A stretch of 64,000 nt of DNA from Mycobacteroides abscessus ATCC 19977 (GTDB lineage: Bacteria > Actinomycetota > Actinomycetes > Mycobacteriales > Mycobacteriaceae), in assembly GCF_000069185.1 (NCBI RefSeq), contig NC_010397.1:1612001-1676000 (forward strand), read 5' to 3'. Shown piece by piece: positions 45,327 to 50,544 of this stretch. Position 1 is the first letter of the stretch. Each line of letters opens with the position of its first letter. Under the pieces are notes generated by a model. That model saw only the letters and a list, made by a program, of their open reading frames with translations, made no database searches and had not been told where the DNA came from. The position numbers and the translations under genes are program-made.

Positions 45327-46745
45327 CTACACCCCGGACAGGGTGAGTTGGCGCTGAGGCGCGGGCGCCGTGGAAGTTTCATGACGGCGCCAGCAGTGGC
45401 GAAGCACGCGCAGCACGAACGTGGGCCGCCTCATCGACCGCGGTGCGTCCTGCATGTTGTTGACCCGCAATATCGTTTCGGTGATGGCGATGTCGTTTCG
45501 CGCCGCCATCAGCATCTTCGCGGACCACCATGCCATCAGATTCCACTTGACTCGTTGTCCGAAGGTCGCGCTGTCGGGGGCCGAGCTGTGAAGTGGTGCC
45601 GTCATTCTGTTGTGTTCCCACGCCGTGCTGATGCGCTTGCCGACCGTTTGAAAATACCGGCGGGCGAGGTCCGCGTCACCCTCGAACAGGCAGTCTCGCA
45701 ATGCCGCCGCCTCGAGGAGCGCCATCGTCATACCCTGGCCCCTGATGGGGTCCAGGCTGCAGACGGCATCGCCGATGACCAGTAGTCCCTCCGGGAACCC
45801 GTCCATCTCGTCGTATCGCCGCCACACGGCATCGCGGTACCAGAAGTTGTGGACTGCGCCCACCGGTTCCGCCGACCGTAGCGTCTCCACGACCGCGTGG
45901 GGCACGAATTGCTCTGCGAGGGTTATCATTTCAGCGAACGTGGTGGGCGGCTCGTCCAGGTTGAACTGGCCCAGAGTCATCATGACCGTATCGTTCTCGC
46001 AGCGGGCGATAGCCCCGCCGAAGGGGCGACCGGGCGCGGCGTTGAGAAAGGTGAGCTTGTCCAGGTCGGTGTCCTCGGAAACGTGTAGCAACTGGCTCGC
46101 GTACGTCACCGGCGACGCCACGCGAGTCTCGGCTGGCCGGGCAAAACCGAGCCGGTCCAGGAATGTCTGCGTGCGTGGGGTGCGGCCGGTCGCATCCACC
46201 ACCAGATCGCAGATGAGTGTTGTCACCAGACCGGTGGAGCGCCGCGCCACCCGCACGCCGGTAATGCGGTGCTCGGCGGTCATGGGTTCGATGACATCGT
46301 GCCCATCCAGGAACTTGACATTTCCCAATCGCTGAACACGTTGTCGTACATGGAATTCCAGGAATGGGCGGGTGGTGAGATACAGCTTGAATGTTTCCGG
46401 ATCGCTGAACTTTTTCGTGCGATTGAACATCTCGTGAGTGCCGAGCAGCATCCTGATGCGCGACAGGTCGCCCTCATCGCAGACCGTGGCGCCATCCGTG
46501 CGGAGGTCGTCGAGGATTCCGGGGAACAACTGTTCCAGCCCCTGTGTCCCAGCGGCCATGAACATATGGATGTGGTGTCCCTGCGGTACCCCGCTACGCG
46601 CAGCGGCAACCTTGTGCAGTTCGTCACGCTCGACCACCGTGACCGATGCGTACGACTCGGATAGCACTCTGGCTGCCAGCAGCCCCGCCATCCCGGCGCC
46701 AAGGACTACCGCGTGATCTCTGTGGTCCCGAACGTGAGGTGTCAT
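45327..46745 (-). CDS. FAD-dependent oxidoreductase (halogenase/monooxygenase-like)
   Basis: A 472-residue flavoprotein. The N-terminal VVLGAGMAGLLAARVL binds ADP, followed by VVERDELHKVAAARSGVPQGHHIH, which is typical of a group of actinobacterial monooxygenases related to FAD halogenases and geranylgeranyl reductases. The second motif LVIGDAVCSLDPIRGQGM is at about residue 310. The substrate is unknown. It lies between comEC (convergent, five bases apart) and the four-gene membrane operon, in the block that interrupts the usual comEC-holA adjacency. Three TCTAAG repeats lie just upstream. Confidence 0.83.
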   Translation of the reverse strand: MTPHVRDHRDHAVVLGAGMAGLLAARVLSESYASVTVVERDELHKVAAARSGVPQGHHIHMFMAAGTQGLEQLFPGILDDLRTDGATVCDEGDLSRIRMLLGTHEMFNRTKKFSDPETFKLYLTTRPFLEFHVRQRVQRLGNVKFLDGHDVIEPMTAEHRITGVRVARRSTGLVTTLICDLVVDATGRTPRTQTFLDRLGFARPAETRVASPVTYASQLLHVSEDTDLDKLTFLNAAPGRPFGGAIARCENDTVMMTLGQFNLDEPPTTFAEMITLAEQFVPHAVVETLRSAEPVGAVHNFWYRDAVWRRYDEMDGFPEGLLVIGDAVCSLDPIRGQGMTMALLEAAALRDCLFEGDADLARRYFQTVGKRISTAWEHNRMTAPLHSSAPDSATFGQRVKWNLMAWWSAKMLMAARNDIAITETILRVNNMQDAPRSMRRPTFVLRVLRHCWRRHETSTAPAPQRQLTLSGV

Positions 46746-46832: not shown

Positions 46833-48158
46833 TCAGCCGCCGAAGAGCAGGTACAGCCCGGTGAAGGTGTAACCGACCATTACCAGCATCATCGCCAGCT
46901 GCCCGGTCACCTGATGCTGCTTGGGCAGCACCTTCAGCGCCTGGTCATGCGCCGCGACCACCCCCGCGATGTGGCCCGCCAACACGAACCCCACCTTGAG
47001 TGTCGCCAGCACGGATGGGTGCATGGACAGGGCATACGAGACATCGACATCGGCCAGCCACCCGCGCCCGAGCGGATCCGCGAGCCGCAGCACGGTCTGC
47101 TGTCCGCGCTCCACCAGATAGGTCAGATAGTGCGCGAATATGTAGCCGATCACGATGGGGATCAAGGAGTGCGCCAACAGCCCTGGCAGATTCCGTCGGG
47201 TGGCGCGGTCCACGCCGCCGGTGGCGCGCGCCGCGAGGCAGAACGTTGTCGCGACCACGATCACGAAGACCGTCAGCCCGGCGGTGCGGATGGCCACCGA
47301 TGCCACCGTCGATCCTTGGGCAAGCGCATCGACGAGTCCGCGCCACTCCGGCATCGCCGAGAAACTGTCGAACGCGGTGGAACCGAGCAACACCGCGAGC
47401 ACCGCCACCATGCCCGGCCGTATCGGCAGCGACGGTAGATGATCGAACGGATTGCCGTACGCGATAAGGCCATCGGTGTTGCGCCGCAAGGGCGACAGCC
47501 GCGAGGCCACCATGCTGTACACCTCGAACGGATCGGCCTGCGCGCACCAGCGTGTGCCGCAGGCCAGTGCGCCCGCCATGGTGACGCATAGATACCCCAG
47601 CAGCCAGATCTTCACCGCGCCAAGAGATCCTGGATCAGCGCTGGCTAGCTCCAGCCAGACGAACAGGTACAGTCCTGCGGCAGCGGGCCAATAGCCCCAG
47701 CGTCGCGGGTATGCCACGGGGGGCGGCCGCCGCGCCAGCGGCAGCAGACGGTACGCGGCACGCACGGGTGACAACACCCGCCATACCGGCCCGCACAGCA
47801 GCGACGCCGCCACCACGCCCACCCAGAGCAGAACATAGAAGACTCCCGGCAATGCGTTCCTGCCGTCCTGTGGGCCGAGCACTGCGGCGACGGTGATCCA
47901 TGCGGTCGCGGCCAGTACGACTGCGGTGACCGCCCCGCGCGCGGCAGGTGCGTCGACAATCGCGGTAACCCAGCAGGGCAGTGGTCGCCCCGTTCGGTTC
48001 GTGTCGAATCGGGGCTTCCTCCATGCCAGCGCCACTACCGCAAAGGTGAACGTGAGCGCCCACGCCGCGCCGATCAGTGCGTAGGTGTACGGGATCGGAA
48101 GATCGGCCGAGCCGCCCAGCCCATGGGCCAGAACGGTCGTCGTCCGATCGCCCGTCAT
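46833..48158 (-). CDS. about ten-helix membrane protein with AHGxGG-DLPIP N-terminus
   Basis: A 441-residue integral membrane protein. The outer N-terminus reads LAHGLGGSADLPIP (10-23), the hallmark of an uncharacterised family sometimes labelled fenitrothion hydrolase in databases, a name I do not trust as a function. About ten hydrophobic helices follow, with conserved-looking HYLTYLVERGQ and a late AGHIAGVVAAHDQALKVL helix containing two His. It overlaps the lipoprotein gene by four bases, so the two are coupled. Role unknown; the partner lipoprotein and His residues suggest metal or electron-related work at the membrane. Confidence 0.7.
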   Translation of the reverse strand: MTGDRTTTVLAHGLGGSADLPIPYTYALIGAAWALTFTFAVVALAWRKPRFDTNRTGRPLPCWVTAIVDAPAARGAVTAVVLAATAWITVAAVLGPQDGRNALPGVFYVLLWVGVVAASLLCGPVWRVLSPVRAAYRLLPLARRPPPVAYPRRWGYWPAAAGLYLFVWLELASADPGSLGAVKIWLLGYLCVTMAGALACGTRWCAQADPFEVYSMVASRLSPLRRNTDGLIAYGNPFDHLPSLPIRPGMVAVLAVLLGSTAFDSFSAMPEWRGLVDALAQGSTVASVAIRTAGLTVFVIVVATTFCLAARATGGVDRATRRNLPGLLAHSLIPIVIGYIFAHYLTYLVERGQQTVLRLADPLGRGWLADVDVSYALSMHPSVLATLKVGFVLAGHIAGVVAAHDQALKVLPKQHQVTGQLAMMLVMVGYTFTGLYLLFGG

Positions 48159-48523
48159 GGCTGCACGGTGATGGTGGCGACGGTCTTCTTCAGTTTGTGC
48201 AGTTCCACGTCGACCTTCCCGGGCACATTCACGGTGAACTGGAATGTCTGGCCGCTCTTCGGTTCGATGTCAAAGCTGTGATCGGGGGTGGAGTGCACGT
48301 GCAGCTCATCGGCGGCGTCGCTATCCACGTGTACCACGATGGGCTCGGAGACCCGCGCGGACAACGCGGCGTTGGTCGGTGTGACGACCCCGCCCCTGAT
48401 ACTGATGTCGACCGCCAGCGCAGGGGGCGGCGTGCCGGATTCGGTGGTGGGGGTCTCCCTGGACGTGCCGCAGCCGCTGCAGAGCAAGACGGCAGCGGTC
48501 ATCGTGGCGAGGGCTCTGATCAT
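48155..48523 (-). CDS. cupredoxin-like lipoprotein
   Basis: A 122-residue lipoprotein precursor. The signal MIRALATMTAAVLLCSGC ends in a lipobox with Cys18 as lipid anchor. The mature part is a small beta-sandwich: DISIRGGVVTPTN, EPIVVHVDSDAADELHVHSTPDHSF, FQFTVNVPGKVDVELHKL. Several His (HVH, DHS, ELH) may bind metal, but no Cys or Met lies where type-1 copper ligands are expected. It resembles the small cupredoxin-fold proteins regularly found beside the AHGxGG family. The stop overlaps the next gene; 12 bp separate it from the 52-residue gene upstream. Confidence 0.72.
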   Translation of the reverse strand: MIRALATMTAAVLLCSGCGTSRETPTTESGTPPPALAVDISIRGGVVTPTNAALSARVSEPIVVHVDSDAADELHVHSTPDHSFDIEPKSGQTFQFTVNVPGKVDVELHKLKKTVATITVQP

Positions 48524-48535
48524 CCTCGGTTCCTC

Positions 48536-48694
48536 CTAGTCGCGGTTTTCTTCCTCATTGGCCTGATCGTCTTCGTTGCCCCGTCGGCGGTCCCGCATGG
48601 CAACCCAGATGACCACGCCAGCCACCACTACCGCTGGTGCGAACGCGGGCAGTGCCAGTAGTAGGGAGTGGTCGGCCAGATGCTCGACGGTCAT
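48536..48694 (-). CDS. 52-residue small membrane protein
   Basis: Begins MTVEHLADHSLLLALPAFAPA, with a single membrane segment (about 9-29) ending in the basic MRDRRRG and an acidic tail NEDDQANEEENRD. The ATG (48694-48692) overlaps the stop of the large membrane protein (ATGA) and the stop lies 12 bp before the lipoprotein ATG, so the gene sits tightly inside the operon, which argues that it is real. It may be a small accessory subunit, as in cytochrome-type complexes. Function unknown. Confidence 0.65.
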   Translation of the reverse strand: MTVEHLADHSLLLALPAFAPAVVVAGVVIWVAMRDRRRGNEDDQANEEENRD

Positions 48695-50544
48695 TTGCCG
48701 TGCGGCACCGGCTCCTTGGGGCCCGGCGTTGGCAATGTGTCACTGTCACTGCGTGATTCGGTGCCGTTGATGCGTCCGGCGCCCCAGCTCAACACTGCGA
48801 TCAGTACCAGGGTGCAGAACAGCACCACCAGCGACGCCGCCTCGAACAGCCAGGACGGATGGTTCTGATTGCGTTCGCGCTGCAGGATCGACAGTTCCTG
48901 AGTGAACGGCCTTGTGCTTGACGCCAACGCGGGTGTCTCTTGCGCCCCGATGCCGGGATCCGCGGGCAGGAAGATCGGGACACCGGTCATGGTGGTGCCG
49001 TCTTGTACGCGCAGCAGGGTCTTCCACGAGCCGTATACCGGGATCGGCTGAGTCGAGCGGTAGTGGCCTTCACTGATCTTCCGCAGCGTGTCGATCGCCA
49101 GACCGTGATCATTGGCCAAGCCGCCCTGCCAGGACAAGATGGTGACCCACTCGGGATCATCGCTGATGAGGTCGTGCGGATTGATCACCACATCCGCGGA
49201 CACCATCCGCCTACCACCGTCATTGGACAGGTCATTCAAGGTAATTGTGGCGGTGGCACGCTCGGGTACTTCGGTGCGCAGGCCATTGGCGACCGCCGCG
49301 CCCAGGATCAGTACCGTGAGGACCACCGCGGTGATGCTCACGGGCCGGGCGGGCAGCTTCTGGCCGATGAGCACCATGCCCAGCAGCGCCCCACAGATGC
49401 CCATGGCGATCGCGGCCGGTACCGCCATCGCAAGTGCCTCCGGCCACATGCTCACGGGCCACGGGTAACGGTAGACGGCGCCGATCCAGAGCGATTCCAG
49501 CCACAGACCTGCGGTGCCCACGCCCAGGCCCGCGAGCGCACCGAAGAGTATGGGGCGCTTGATGAGTGGTGTCAGCGCGATGAGCTCGACCACCAGCGCC
49601 GGCCCGAGGTAGAGGGCGAACCAGCTGGTCGGTCCGCCGAGGATCGGCCCCGCGAGCAAGGCGACGGCCGCACGCAGAACAATGGCGAGCAGGGCGCCGA
49701 TGATTGCTGCGCCACGCCCCATCACAATTCGCGCGCACACCGCGGCGAACGCCGCGGCCGCGGCGATCATCATGGGTTGCTGTACCAGTCTGAACTGTTC
49801 AACCCCGAAGTCGTATTCGATCTGGAACACCGAAAGCCCAATGAACAAGCCGCCAAACGATAAGTAGCGCAAGAACTTCACAAATCGTGTGTCATCGTCG
49901 GCACTGAAGCCGATGGCTCGTCGGCCCTCGTATTCGAGGATCAGTACCGAGACCAGGGATAGCCCGGCGCCGCCGATCAGCATCAGGTGGGTGGGGCCCC
50001 AGAGCGTGACGTCCTGGCCGAAGATGCGATGCCAGATGTCATCTAGTGGAAACCCGATCAATGCATACAGGCCGCACATGGCCATTAGCAGTCCGCCGAC
50101 CGGTGCATACCAGGTGCGGGTGATGCGCACCGCCGCCGATCCGGGCTTGTCGTAGGGCAGGACCATCGCCAGCGTGCCGGCGATGAACAGTAAGAACAGC
50201 CCGAACAGGATGAAGTAATGGGCGGGATTGGCTAGCGGGCCCGCGTCGCGGCCCTTGCCGATGTGCAGACTGACATCCCAGATGAAGCCGAACAGCGCGG
50301 CGACGATCGTGGTGACGAACAGACAGATCTGGAGTGCGACCCAGGGCGGCCGGTTGAACTTGTTGCCCACTTTGTCCGCGAGGCTCTGTAGCCAGGTGAT
50401 CCGTCGCTGACGGTGTAGATAGCCGATCCACAACAGACCCACCGAGACGATCGTGGCAGCCACAGACATTCCGATCACCTGGTCGAGCGCCGCTCCACCG
50501 CCCTCATTGGCGGCTGCGATGATGCGCACAGAGTGTGTTGTCAT
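48691..50544 (-). CDS. large multi-spanning membrane protein with YtkA/FixH-like outer domain
   Basis: A 617-residue protein, first gene of the operon. Residues 1-430 contain about eleven or twelve hydrophobic helices with motifs such as FIWDVSLHIGKGRDAGPL, PAHYFILFG and WGPTHLMLIGG, in which His residues within helices could bind a metal or haem. Then comes an outer domain of about 150 residues (EWVTILSWQGG, GHYRSTQPIPVYGSWKTLLRV) like YtkA/FixH domains, and one last helix. The start is the ATG at 50544; the open frame to 50715 would reach into holA. Function not known. Confidence 0.72.
   Translation of the reverse strand: MTTHSVRIIAAANEGGGAALDQVIGMSVAATIVSVGLLWIGYLHRQRRITWLQSLADKVGNKFNRPPWVALQICLFVTTIVAALFGFIWDVSLHIGKGRDAGPLANPAHYFILFGLFLLFIAGTLAMVLPYDKPGSAAVRITRTWYAPVGGLLMAMCGLYALIGFPLDDIWHRIFGQDVTLWGPTHLMLIGGAGLSLVSVLILEYEGRRAIGFSADDDTRFVKFLRYLSFGGLFIGLSVFQIEYDFGVEQFRLVQQPMMIAAAAAFAAVCARIVMGRGAAIIGALLAIVLRAAVALLAGPILGGPTSWFALYLGPALVVELIALTPLIKRPILFGALAGLGVGTAGLWLESLWIGAVYRYPWPVSMWPEALAMAVPAAIAMGICGALLGMVLIGQKLPARPVSITAVVLTVLILGAAVANGLRTEVPERATATITLNDLSNDGGRRMVSADVVINPHDLISDDPEWVTILSWQGGLANDHGLAIDTLRKISEGHYRSTQPIPVYGSWKTLLRVQDGTTMTGVPIFLPADPGIGAQETPALASSTRPFTQELSILQRERNQNHPSWLFEAASLVVLFCTLVLIAVLSWGAGRINGTESRSDSDTLPTPGPKEPVPHGK

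Follow-up and report, generated by a model that had tools for sequence, protein, structure and literature searches.

A four-gene membrane set of Mycobacteroides abscessus with a predicted distant PmoC homolog and a probable role in copper handling or use

Introduction

The closest described systems to the gene set considered here are the copper membrane monooxygenases (CuMMOs) and their accessory genes. As described in the portions of the cited papers on which we draw, the PmoC subunit binds copper at a CuC site formed by Asp156, His160 and His173 and at a CuD site formed by Asn227, His231 and His245 (PMC12576850); the C-site is likewise given as one aspartate and two histidines (PMC9038741), proteobacterial pmo operons carry CopC, CopD and PCuAC (PMC6189053), and the history of CuMMOs has been treated on the basis of the xmoCAB operons of 66 genomes (PMC6215863). 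The origin of PmoC, the question of which copper site is essential, and the copper supply of CuMMOs are debated. Here, we analyzed a 64-kb stretch of DNA (the window) from the 5.09-Mb genome of Mycobacteroides abscessus ATCC 19977 (internal label G000). It holds four adjacent minus-strand genes for a 617-aa membrane protein (M617), a small peptide, a lipoprotein and a 441-aa AHGxGG protein (AHG). Sequence comparisons identify M617 as a distant relative of PmoC, and the four genes probably encode a membrane system that handles or uses copper. The genes are, in their order of reading:

48691-50544, minus strand: M617, a 617-aa open reading frame (ORF), predicted distant PmoC/AmoC homolog over residues 1 to ~260; its C-terminal part closes with a probable outer domain followed by a last helix.
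48536-48694, minus strand: peptide, a 52-aa ORF with a single helix; its conserved LADH tail and a PAFAP stretch are common to its relatives.
48155-48523, minus strand: lipoprotein, a 122-aa ORF, cupredoxin fold, invariant H75-x-H77.
46833-48158, minus strand: AHG, a 441-aa ORF, polytopic membrane protein; related proteins occur in haloarchaea, in Proteobacteria and in the CuMMO clusters of plasmids.

Results

M617 carries WDVSLHIGKGRDAGPLANPAH and DDIWHRIFGQDVTLWGPTH, and the PmoC sequences to which it was compared carry DGSWHQTAVRDTALTPSH and NEWGHSLWITEEIFAVPFH. The corresponding sites in M617 are:

50218..50277, minus strand: M617 site 1, D90-x3-H94-x14-H109, in register with the PmoC CuC ligands D156, H160 and H173.
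49987..50043, minus strand: M617 site 2, D168-x3-H172-x13-H186, in register with the PmoC CuD ligands N227, H231 and H245; Asp replaces Asn.

All six residues are invariant in 57 relatives of M617, in 21 wide members and in the 10 widest members of the family. The ligands of PmoC are spaced D-x3-H-x12-H and N-x3-H-x13-H; short members of the M617 family show D-x3-H-x12-H and D-x3-H-x13-H, and the M617 of the window has two extra residues in the first loop. The CuD-type set retains its spacing and both histidines, with Asp in the position of Asn.

A first comparison of M617 with PmoC by hhalign was merely suggestive (P 0.006, then 0.003), and wider members of the M617 family were therefore collected. 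These comprised short forms in other Actinobacteria, a second paralog in the same genome and plasmid-borne forms. The window protein sits safely within this family: a search of this genome with the short member L154 recovered M617 at E 9.2e-14. An alignment of 29 family sequences, not trimmed to the motif, matched ten PmoC sequences at P 2.5e-6 with a score of 48.4 and both sites in register, a score that was reached by none of 200 column-shuffled PmoC profiles (top score 25.8). The same 29 sequences gave P 0.19, 0.77 and 0.71 against PmoA, PmoB and AHG, respectively. We rely on this comparison because its motif-trimmed counterpart, in which 39 other families from the same loci scored 18.9 or less against PmoC, is biased by a region that was chosen by motif. 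A further profile, A6, was composed of ten diverse family members including the window M617 and the second genomic paralog. It gave P 3.3e-6 against 10 PmoC sequences in hhalign, and its search against 177,635 distinct sequences of the Protein Data Bank (PDB) returned nine matches at E<=10, all nine of them AmoC or PmoC (best 1.7e-4, 6.5e-4 and 0.0012); the three alignments shown all spanned both sites.

In two-way profile searches that included 858 decoy ORFs and reversed sequences, PmoC sequences were the four best non-members for a distant M617 profile, and L154 was the best non-PmoC match of the PmoC profile, both at low scores. Searched alone, one family member had AmoC as its sole Pfam match (E 0.0054, below the cut-off); of 10 family members, 2 matched it, with at best 16.6 bits against a cut-off of 26.7. 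A two-site pattern, written after both families had been inspected, was found in 115 of the 8847 ORFs of the loci, that is, in 105 members of the M617 family, 10 PmoC and no other ORF, and it did not occur in three shuffles. PF04896 (AmoC) had no match over its cut-off in this genome, while the same search matched three other genomes, and scans of viral contigs gave no PmoC or M617 relatives. From these alignments, M617 is a distant and previously unrecognized PmoC/AmoC homolog that stands outside PF04896 proper.

The genomic surroundings of relatives point to copper. A plasmid survey by tblastn over 72,556 records yielded 58 records matched by AHG and 10 matched by PmoC. Four of the ten PmoC plasmids are actinobacterial (M. 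chubuense NBB4, M. dioxanotrophicus, Rhodococcus ZPP and Rhodococcus WAY2), and all four carry AHG with a lipoprotein gene before it, ~1 to 10 kb from pmoC. On the M. dioxanotrophicus plasmid AHG lies ~1 kb upstream of pmoC, and in Rhodococcus ZPP and WAY2 the lipoprotein is annotated as a short piece of 75 aa. None of the six proteobacterial PmoC plasmids was among the AHG matches listed (40 of 58). Twelve of the 58 AHG records were read, and eight of these loci adjoin CuMMO or copper genes, namely the four PmoC plasmids and those of JOB5, M. gallinarum, Sulfitobacter and Haloferax. M. vanbaalenii JOB5 was the only plasmid with M617, and CopC is encoded by the next gene upstream of it; the region also holds CtaG, oxidase subunits and a CopY-type regulator, with AHG and the lipoprotein ~8 kb off. 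AHG adjoins CopC and a metal-sensing regulator on the M. gallinarum plasmid, PCuAC on that of Sulfitobacter and a heavy-metal P-type ATPase on that of Haloferax. Short PmoC-like members were found on seven plasmid records, six of which were read; five of these six lie near genes for heavy-metal ATPase, multicopper oxidase, cupredoxin, HMA, YHS, metal-sensing or CopY-type regulator proteins. On chromosomes, Pfam places AHG beside SCO1 in G121 and beside CopC in G001.

Some further observations were made on these plasmids and clusters. DUF5134 membrane proteins are encoded near short PmoC-like genes on two Streptomyces plasmids (L204:10270-11133, L205:7576-8448). In actinobacterial hydrocarbon monooxygenase clusters, pmoB is followed by a small gene whose peptide product begins with an AHG-like tail of the LAHGG type (L163:7139-7354, L164:14652-14948, L165:897-1154). 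The actinobacterial genome bins L132, L133 and L134 (family f20) carry pmoC, L132 together with a Pfam-confirmed pmoA, and their PmoC proteins are 35-39% identical to the actinobacterial plasmid types.

The candidate metal ligands of the lipoprotein and AHG are the following:

48293..48301, minus strand: lipoprotein H-V-H motif, H75-x-H77, invariant in 14 of 14 members.
48123..48125, minus strand: AHG H12 in the N-terminal tail, present in all 52 actinobacterial members aligned and not invariant in the wide set.
47130..47132, minus strand: AHG H343, invariant.
46971..46973, minus strand: AHG H396, invariant.
46947..46949, minus strand: AHG H404, invariant.

The best PDB matches of the lipoprotein profile were CuA domains of cytochrome oxidase subunit 2 (2.1e-6 at best). 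Nitrite reductases and other cupredoxins were matched with weaker scores, and some unrelated matches fell on the signal/linker part. Cupredoxin_1 was matched by 6 of 14 members and not by the window member alone. Since no candidate ligands other than H75 and H77 are invariant across the 14 members and the type-1 set of Cys, two His and Met is absent, the lipoprotein is best described as a cupredoxin fold with an H-x-H site and not as a type-1 protein. An earlier reading of this DNA from its sequence only (the sequence-only reading) had come to the same view of a cupredoxin-fold lipoprotein lacking the full type-1 site. It had also named the AHG family after AHGxGG, which is not the constant feature of the family: H12, H343, H396 and H404 are invariant in the 52 actinobacterial members, and in 18 wider members including haloarchaea, at least one of which (Variovorax) was read from an annotated start without the tail, the invariant residues are H343, H396 and H404 and not H12. 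AHG has histidines inside or next to predicted helices. Neither Pfam (including CopD, PF05425) nor PDB profile searches returned relatives of AHG, the genome's own CopD being encoded elsewhere, and AHG showed no relation to the PmoA, PmoB and PmoC profiles (P 0.53, 0.43 and 0.23).

We also considered whether the A-HG start could provide a cleaved N-terminal histidine, as in PmoB and CopC. This would fit apparent signal peptides, judged by eye, in some distant members; the window AHG has none before the motif, so such a histidine is not claimed. Haloarchaeal AHG genes (L168:7228-8882, L169:7497-9151) are paired with a small membrane protein, with a start that by eye resembles a zinc finger, instead of the lipoprotein.

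In a survey of 148 genomes of the genus, AHG was found in 111, M617 in 104 and both in 103 (~70%), some of the matches being fragments. In a few mycobacterial genomes (G348, G365, G367, G380 and G382), AHG or M617 matches are fragmentary or contain inner stops, which suggests that the set is decaying or that the assemblies contain errors. Among 296 genomes of the phylum, AHG was detected in 50 (single-protein query) and M617 in 35 (profile), both together in just 14, and adjacent in 8 of these 14. Given this difference between phylum and genus, the operon is a lineage-level pairing of two separable modules, one being M617 and the other the lipoprotein with AHG. The sequence-only reading had taken the four proteins for an apparently complete membrane complex and had named rare co-occurrence elsewhere as what would speak against its account. 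Co-occurrence is indeed rare outside close relatives, where the parts are mostly found apart and the notion of a complete complex is not borne out, whereas within the genus the families regularly occur together.

Among close relatives the architecture is well kept. The junctions of the window set, in the order M617/peptide/lipoprotein/AHG, are a 4-bp ATGA overlap, a 12-bp gap and a 4-bp ATGA overlap, and the ORF coordinates agree exactly with the overlapping minus-strand arrangement described before. The mycobacterial locus sample consisted of the best 80 of 234 loci found with AHG, hence of close relatives, and the closest locus found was that of Mycobacterium sp. D16R12. The gene order was kept across this sample, with M617 in 79 of 80 loci, the lipoprotein in all 80 and a complete AHG ORF in 79; the two gaps (L004, L077) are contig-cut. 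The 4-bp overlap of lipoprotein and AHG was the same in 62 of 79 loci, with start codons chosen by script. The peptide was in place in 76 of 80 loci, 69 by tblastn and 7 more by a small-ORF script; it was not in place in L071, L080 and L081 (in L080 the match lies before M617), and L004 is cut. A hydropathy scan predicts 12 helices in M617 and 9 in AHG; the earlier label of AHG as a ten-helix protein is thus approximate.

The set is flanked by comEC and holA, both confirmed by Pfam, and had been said to interrupt the usual adjacency of the two. A gene for a flavin adenine dinucleotide (FAD)-dependent oxidoreductase (45327-46745, minus strand), located 87 bp downstream of the set and between comEC and the set, intervenes as well and was seen in L002 alone among the 80 loci. 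Within the DNA examined, the comEC/holA neighbors, too, were found beside the set in L002 only, so this genomic position does not characterize the set. In Pfam and NCBIfam scans, all four proteins stayed below the cut-offs, and a PHROGs scan covering M617, the lipoprotein and AHG gave nothing informative. A weak NCBIfam match within the set concerned an Rv1678-type family (E 0.0082), on which a literature search gave no result. Rfam and tRNA scans of the window found none.

The C-terminal part of M617 contains one more feature:

48865..49272, minus strand: M617 region of ~residues 425-560, lying between the penultimate and the final predicted helix, possible YtkA/FixH-like outer domain.

FixH gave weak Pfam matches in 10 of 57 M617 members (best E 0.11, under the cut-off) and none for the window region alone, and the YtkA/FixH-like domain that had been read into M617 is retained here as a tentative assignment. 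The second PmoC-like paralog of the genome (389 aa; L197:3713-6829, G000:C2) is located ~2 kb past the right end of the window. Its gene is one of a run of three, the other two encoding a YtkA-like product (PF13115, E 4.4e-4, below the cut-off) and an exported protein of 516 aa that is rich in Met and His and has no Pfam match.

Discussion

The reading that we regard as fairly likely is that the four genes encode an extracytoplasmic copper system composed of a PmoC-derived membrane protein and a copper-delivery pair, with the question of catalysis left aside. Copper is most likely the metal of M617, judging from the homology to PmoC and the CuMMO and copper neighbors of relatives. The lipoprotein, with its H-x-H cupredoxin fold, and AHG, with three invariant membrane histidines and a histidine tail, would capture extracytoplasmic copper and deliver it to M617, taking the place of CopC, CopD and PCuAC in proteobacterial pmo operons. 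M617 would hold the copper in two Asp-His-His sites at outer helix ends, as a topology judged by eye from charges suggests; its outer domain may shuttle copper, and the protein may then pass the metal on, store it or use it. For M617 we rate copper handling somewhat above substrate oxidation: the former view is favored by the copper-handling neighbors and the lack of PmoA/PmoB beside M617, the latter by the CuD active-site argument and the strict conservation.

Several findings weigh against this copper system. The link to PmoC rests on A6, which was composed after some plasmid members had been seen to score with PmoC, whereas neither the long-form-dominated profiles A1 and A4 nor a search with the short member by itself reached AmoC or PmoC in the PDB; the hhalign probability is 84-89% and not near 100. 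M617 and AHG are mostly apart outside close relatives. No evident copper neighbor was present at 4 of the 12 AHG plasmid loci (Pseudonocardia, Haladaptatus, Variovorax and M. rufum) and at the Rubrobacter locus, one of the six short-member loci. Single-sequence tblastn of the flanks of the 80 mycobacterial loci detected no CopC, CopY, CtaG, CsoR, multicopper oxidase or PCuAC and one weak P-type ATPase match, so the chromosomal set does not lie in a copper island; a neighbor search on mycobacterial chromosomes returned mainly shadow frames of one downstream gene and no copper genes. Finally, of three genomes with Pfam AmoC, AHG is found in G028 and is absent from G013 (86% complete) and G042 (99%), so that the tie between AHG and PmoC is not absolute.

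The alternative that survives best, although we consider it rather unlikely, is that M617 is a copper enzyme that activates oxygen, a PmoC-only membrane oxidase or monooxygenase whose substrate is a small molecule or a lipid. The outer domain would then take over part of the role of PmoB, and the AHG pair would serve as maturation factors. Such an enzyme would be in line with the preservation of both PmoC ligand sets, including CuD, which the cited portion of PMC12576850 argues to be the active site of particulate methane monooxygenase (pMMO), with the occurrence of M617 without AHG in 21 of the 35 phylum genomes that have M617, and with the company that AHG and the lipoprotein keep with genuine CuMMO genes. 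However, M617 has no PmoA or PmoB partner beside it (the neighbors being comEC, the FAD oxidoreductase and holA) and does not form part of a C-A-B subunit operon, the asparagine of CuD is an aspartate, and the plasmid neighbors are mostly copper-handling and not catabolic genes. A PmoB Pfam search of the genome likewise gave no match, though no control genome matched either.

That the two-site motif arose by convergence, in a membrane protein that binds metal and shares no ancestry with PmoC, appears improbable. Identity between the M617 family and PmoC in hhalign is just 16-19% over 97-119 columns, the null results of the long-form profiles and the short member fit this explanation, and the site-to-site distance varies, reaching 87 in the paralog (S389) and in L198. 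On the other hand, distances of 71-74 were counted in the PmoC set, against 72 in L154 and 78 in the window M617, the alignment continues through the two helices between the sites, and the PDB search with A6 gave AmoC and PmoC only.

It is also improbable that the sites bind zinc, iron or haem and that the set serves to transport that metal or works with it as a redox enzyme. Asp-His-His sets can bind metals other than copper, and AHG has histidines in or beside predicted helices, but the copper genes around plasmid relatives of both proteins and the CuMMO association speak for copper. The earlier proposal of a metal- or haem-dependent membrane enzyme or transporter is upheld for a metal-related function, sharpened to copper through the PmoC/AmoC homology; nothing pointed to haem, no search aimed at haem having been made. 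The idea that AHG is a pesticide (fenitrothion) hydrolase, already judged not credible in the sequence-only reading, can be set aside: it has the label alone in its favor, no search here returned that label as an annotation, the literature with the phrase concerns insect gut microbes as judged by titles, the gene name fedA was not found in the papers matched by our literature search, and 8 of 12 AHG plasmid loci have copper contexts.

Among the matches listed in searches of one open-access library, judged by title and abstract opening, we found no paper on a PmoC homolog of this kind or on a function for the AHG family. A broader proposal, which we put forward as speculative and doubtful, is that Actinobacteria, including ~70% of the mycobacterial genomes sampled, harbor an unrecognized deep branch of PmoC that works without PmoA/PmoB as a PmoC-only copper oxidase assembled by the AHG-lipoprotein pair, the pair also being the missing copper-loading factor of actinobacterial hydrocarbon monooxygenases. 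An M617-type homolog with both ligand sets invariant and no PmoA/PmoB beside it would allow the copper sites to be studied alone, in culturable environmental mycobacteria. The AHG-lipoprotein pair offers a concrete candidate for the copper loading of actinobacterial hydrocarbon monooxygenases, and the copper reading gives a testable function to a gene set present in 103 of 148 genomes of the sampled genus.

Compared to PmoC/AmoC (PF04896), M617 has the same two Asp/Asn-x3-His-x(12-14)-His sets, each between two helices and in the same order, and the relation is recognizable by profiles. It differs by an aspartate where the second set of PmoC has asparagine, a first loop that is longer by two residues, a long C-terminal part, the lack of PmoA/PmoB beside the gene and a score under the PF04896 cut-off. 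Its possible outer domain may be related to the YtkA and FixH domains (PF13115, PF05751), with scores under the Pfam cut-offs. The actinobacterial hydrocarbon monooxygenase clusters of NBB4, M. dioxanotrophicus, Rhodococcus ZPP and WAY2 share with the window an AHG gene preceded by a lipoprotein gene, but they contain annotated subunits C, A and B together with catabolic genes, whereas the window set has M617 instead. As with the accessory genes for CopC, CopD and PCuAC, an exported copper-type protein and a polytopic membrane protein are encoded beside a PmoC-type gene; in Pfam, the lipoprotein and AHG match none of these three, which sets the pair apart from its proteobacterial counterparts.

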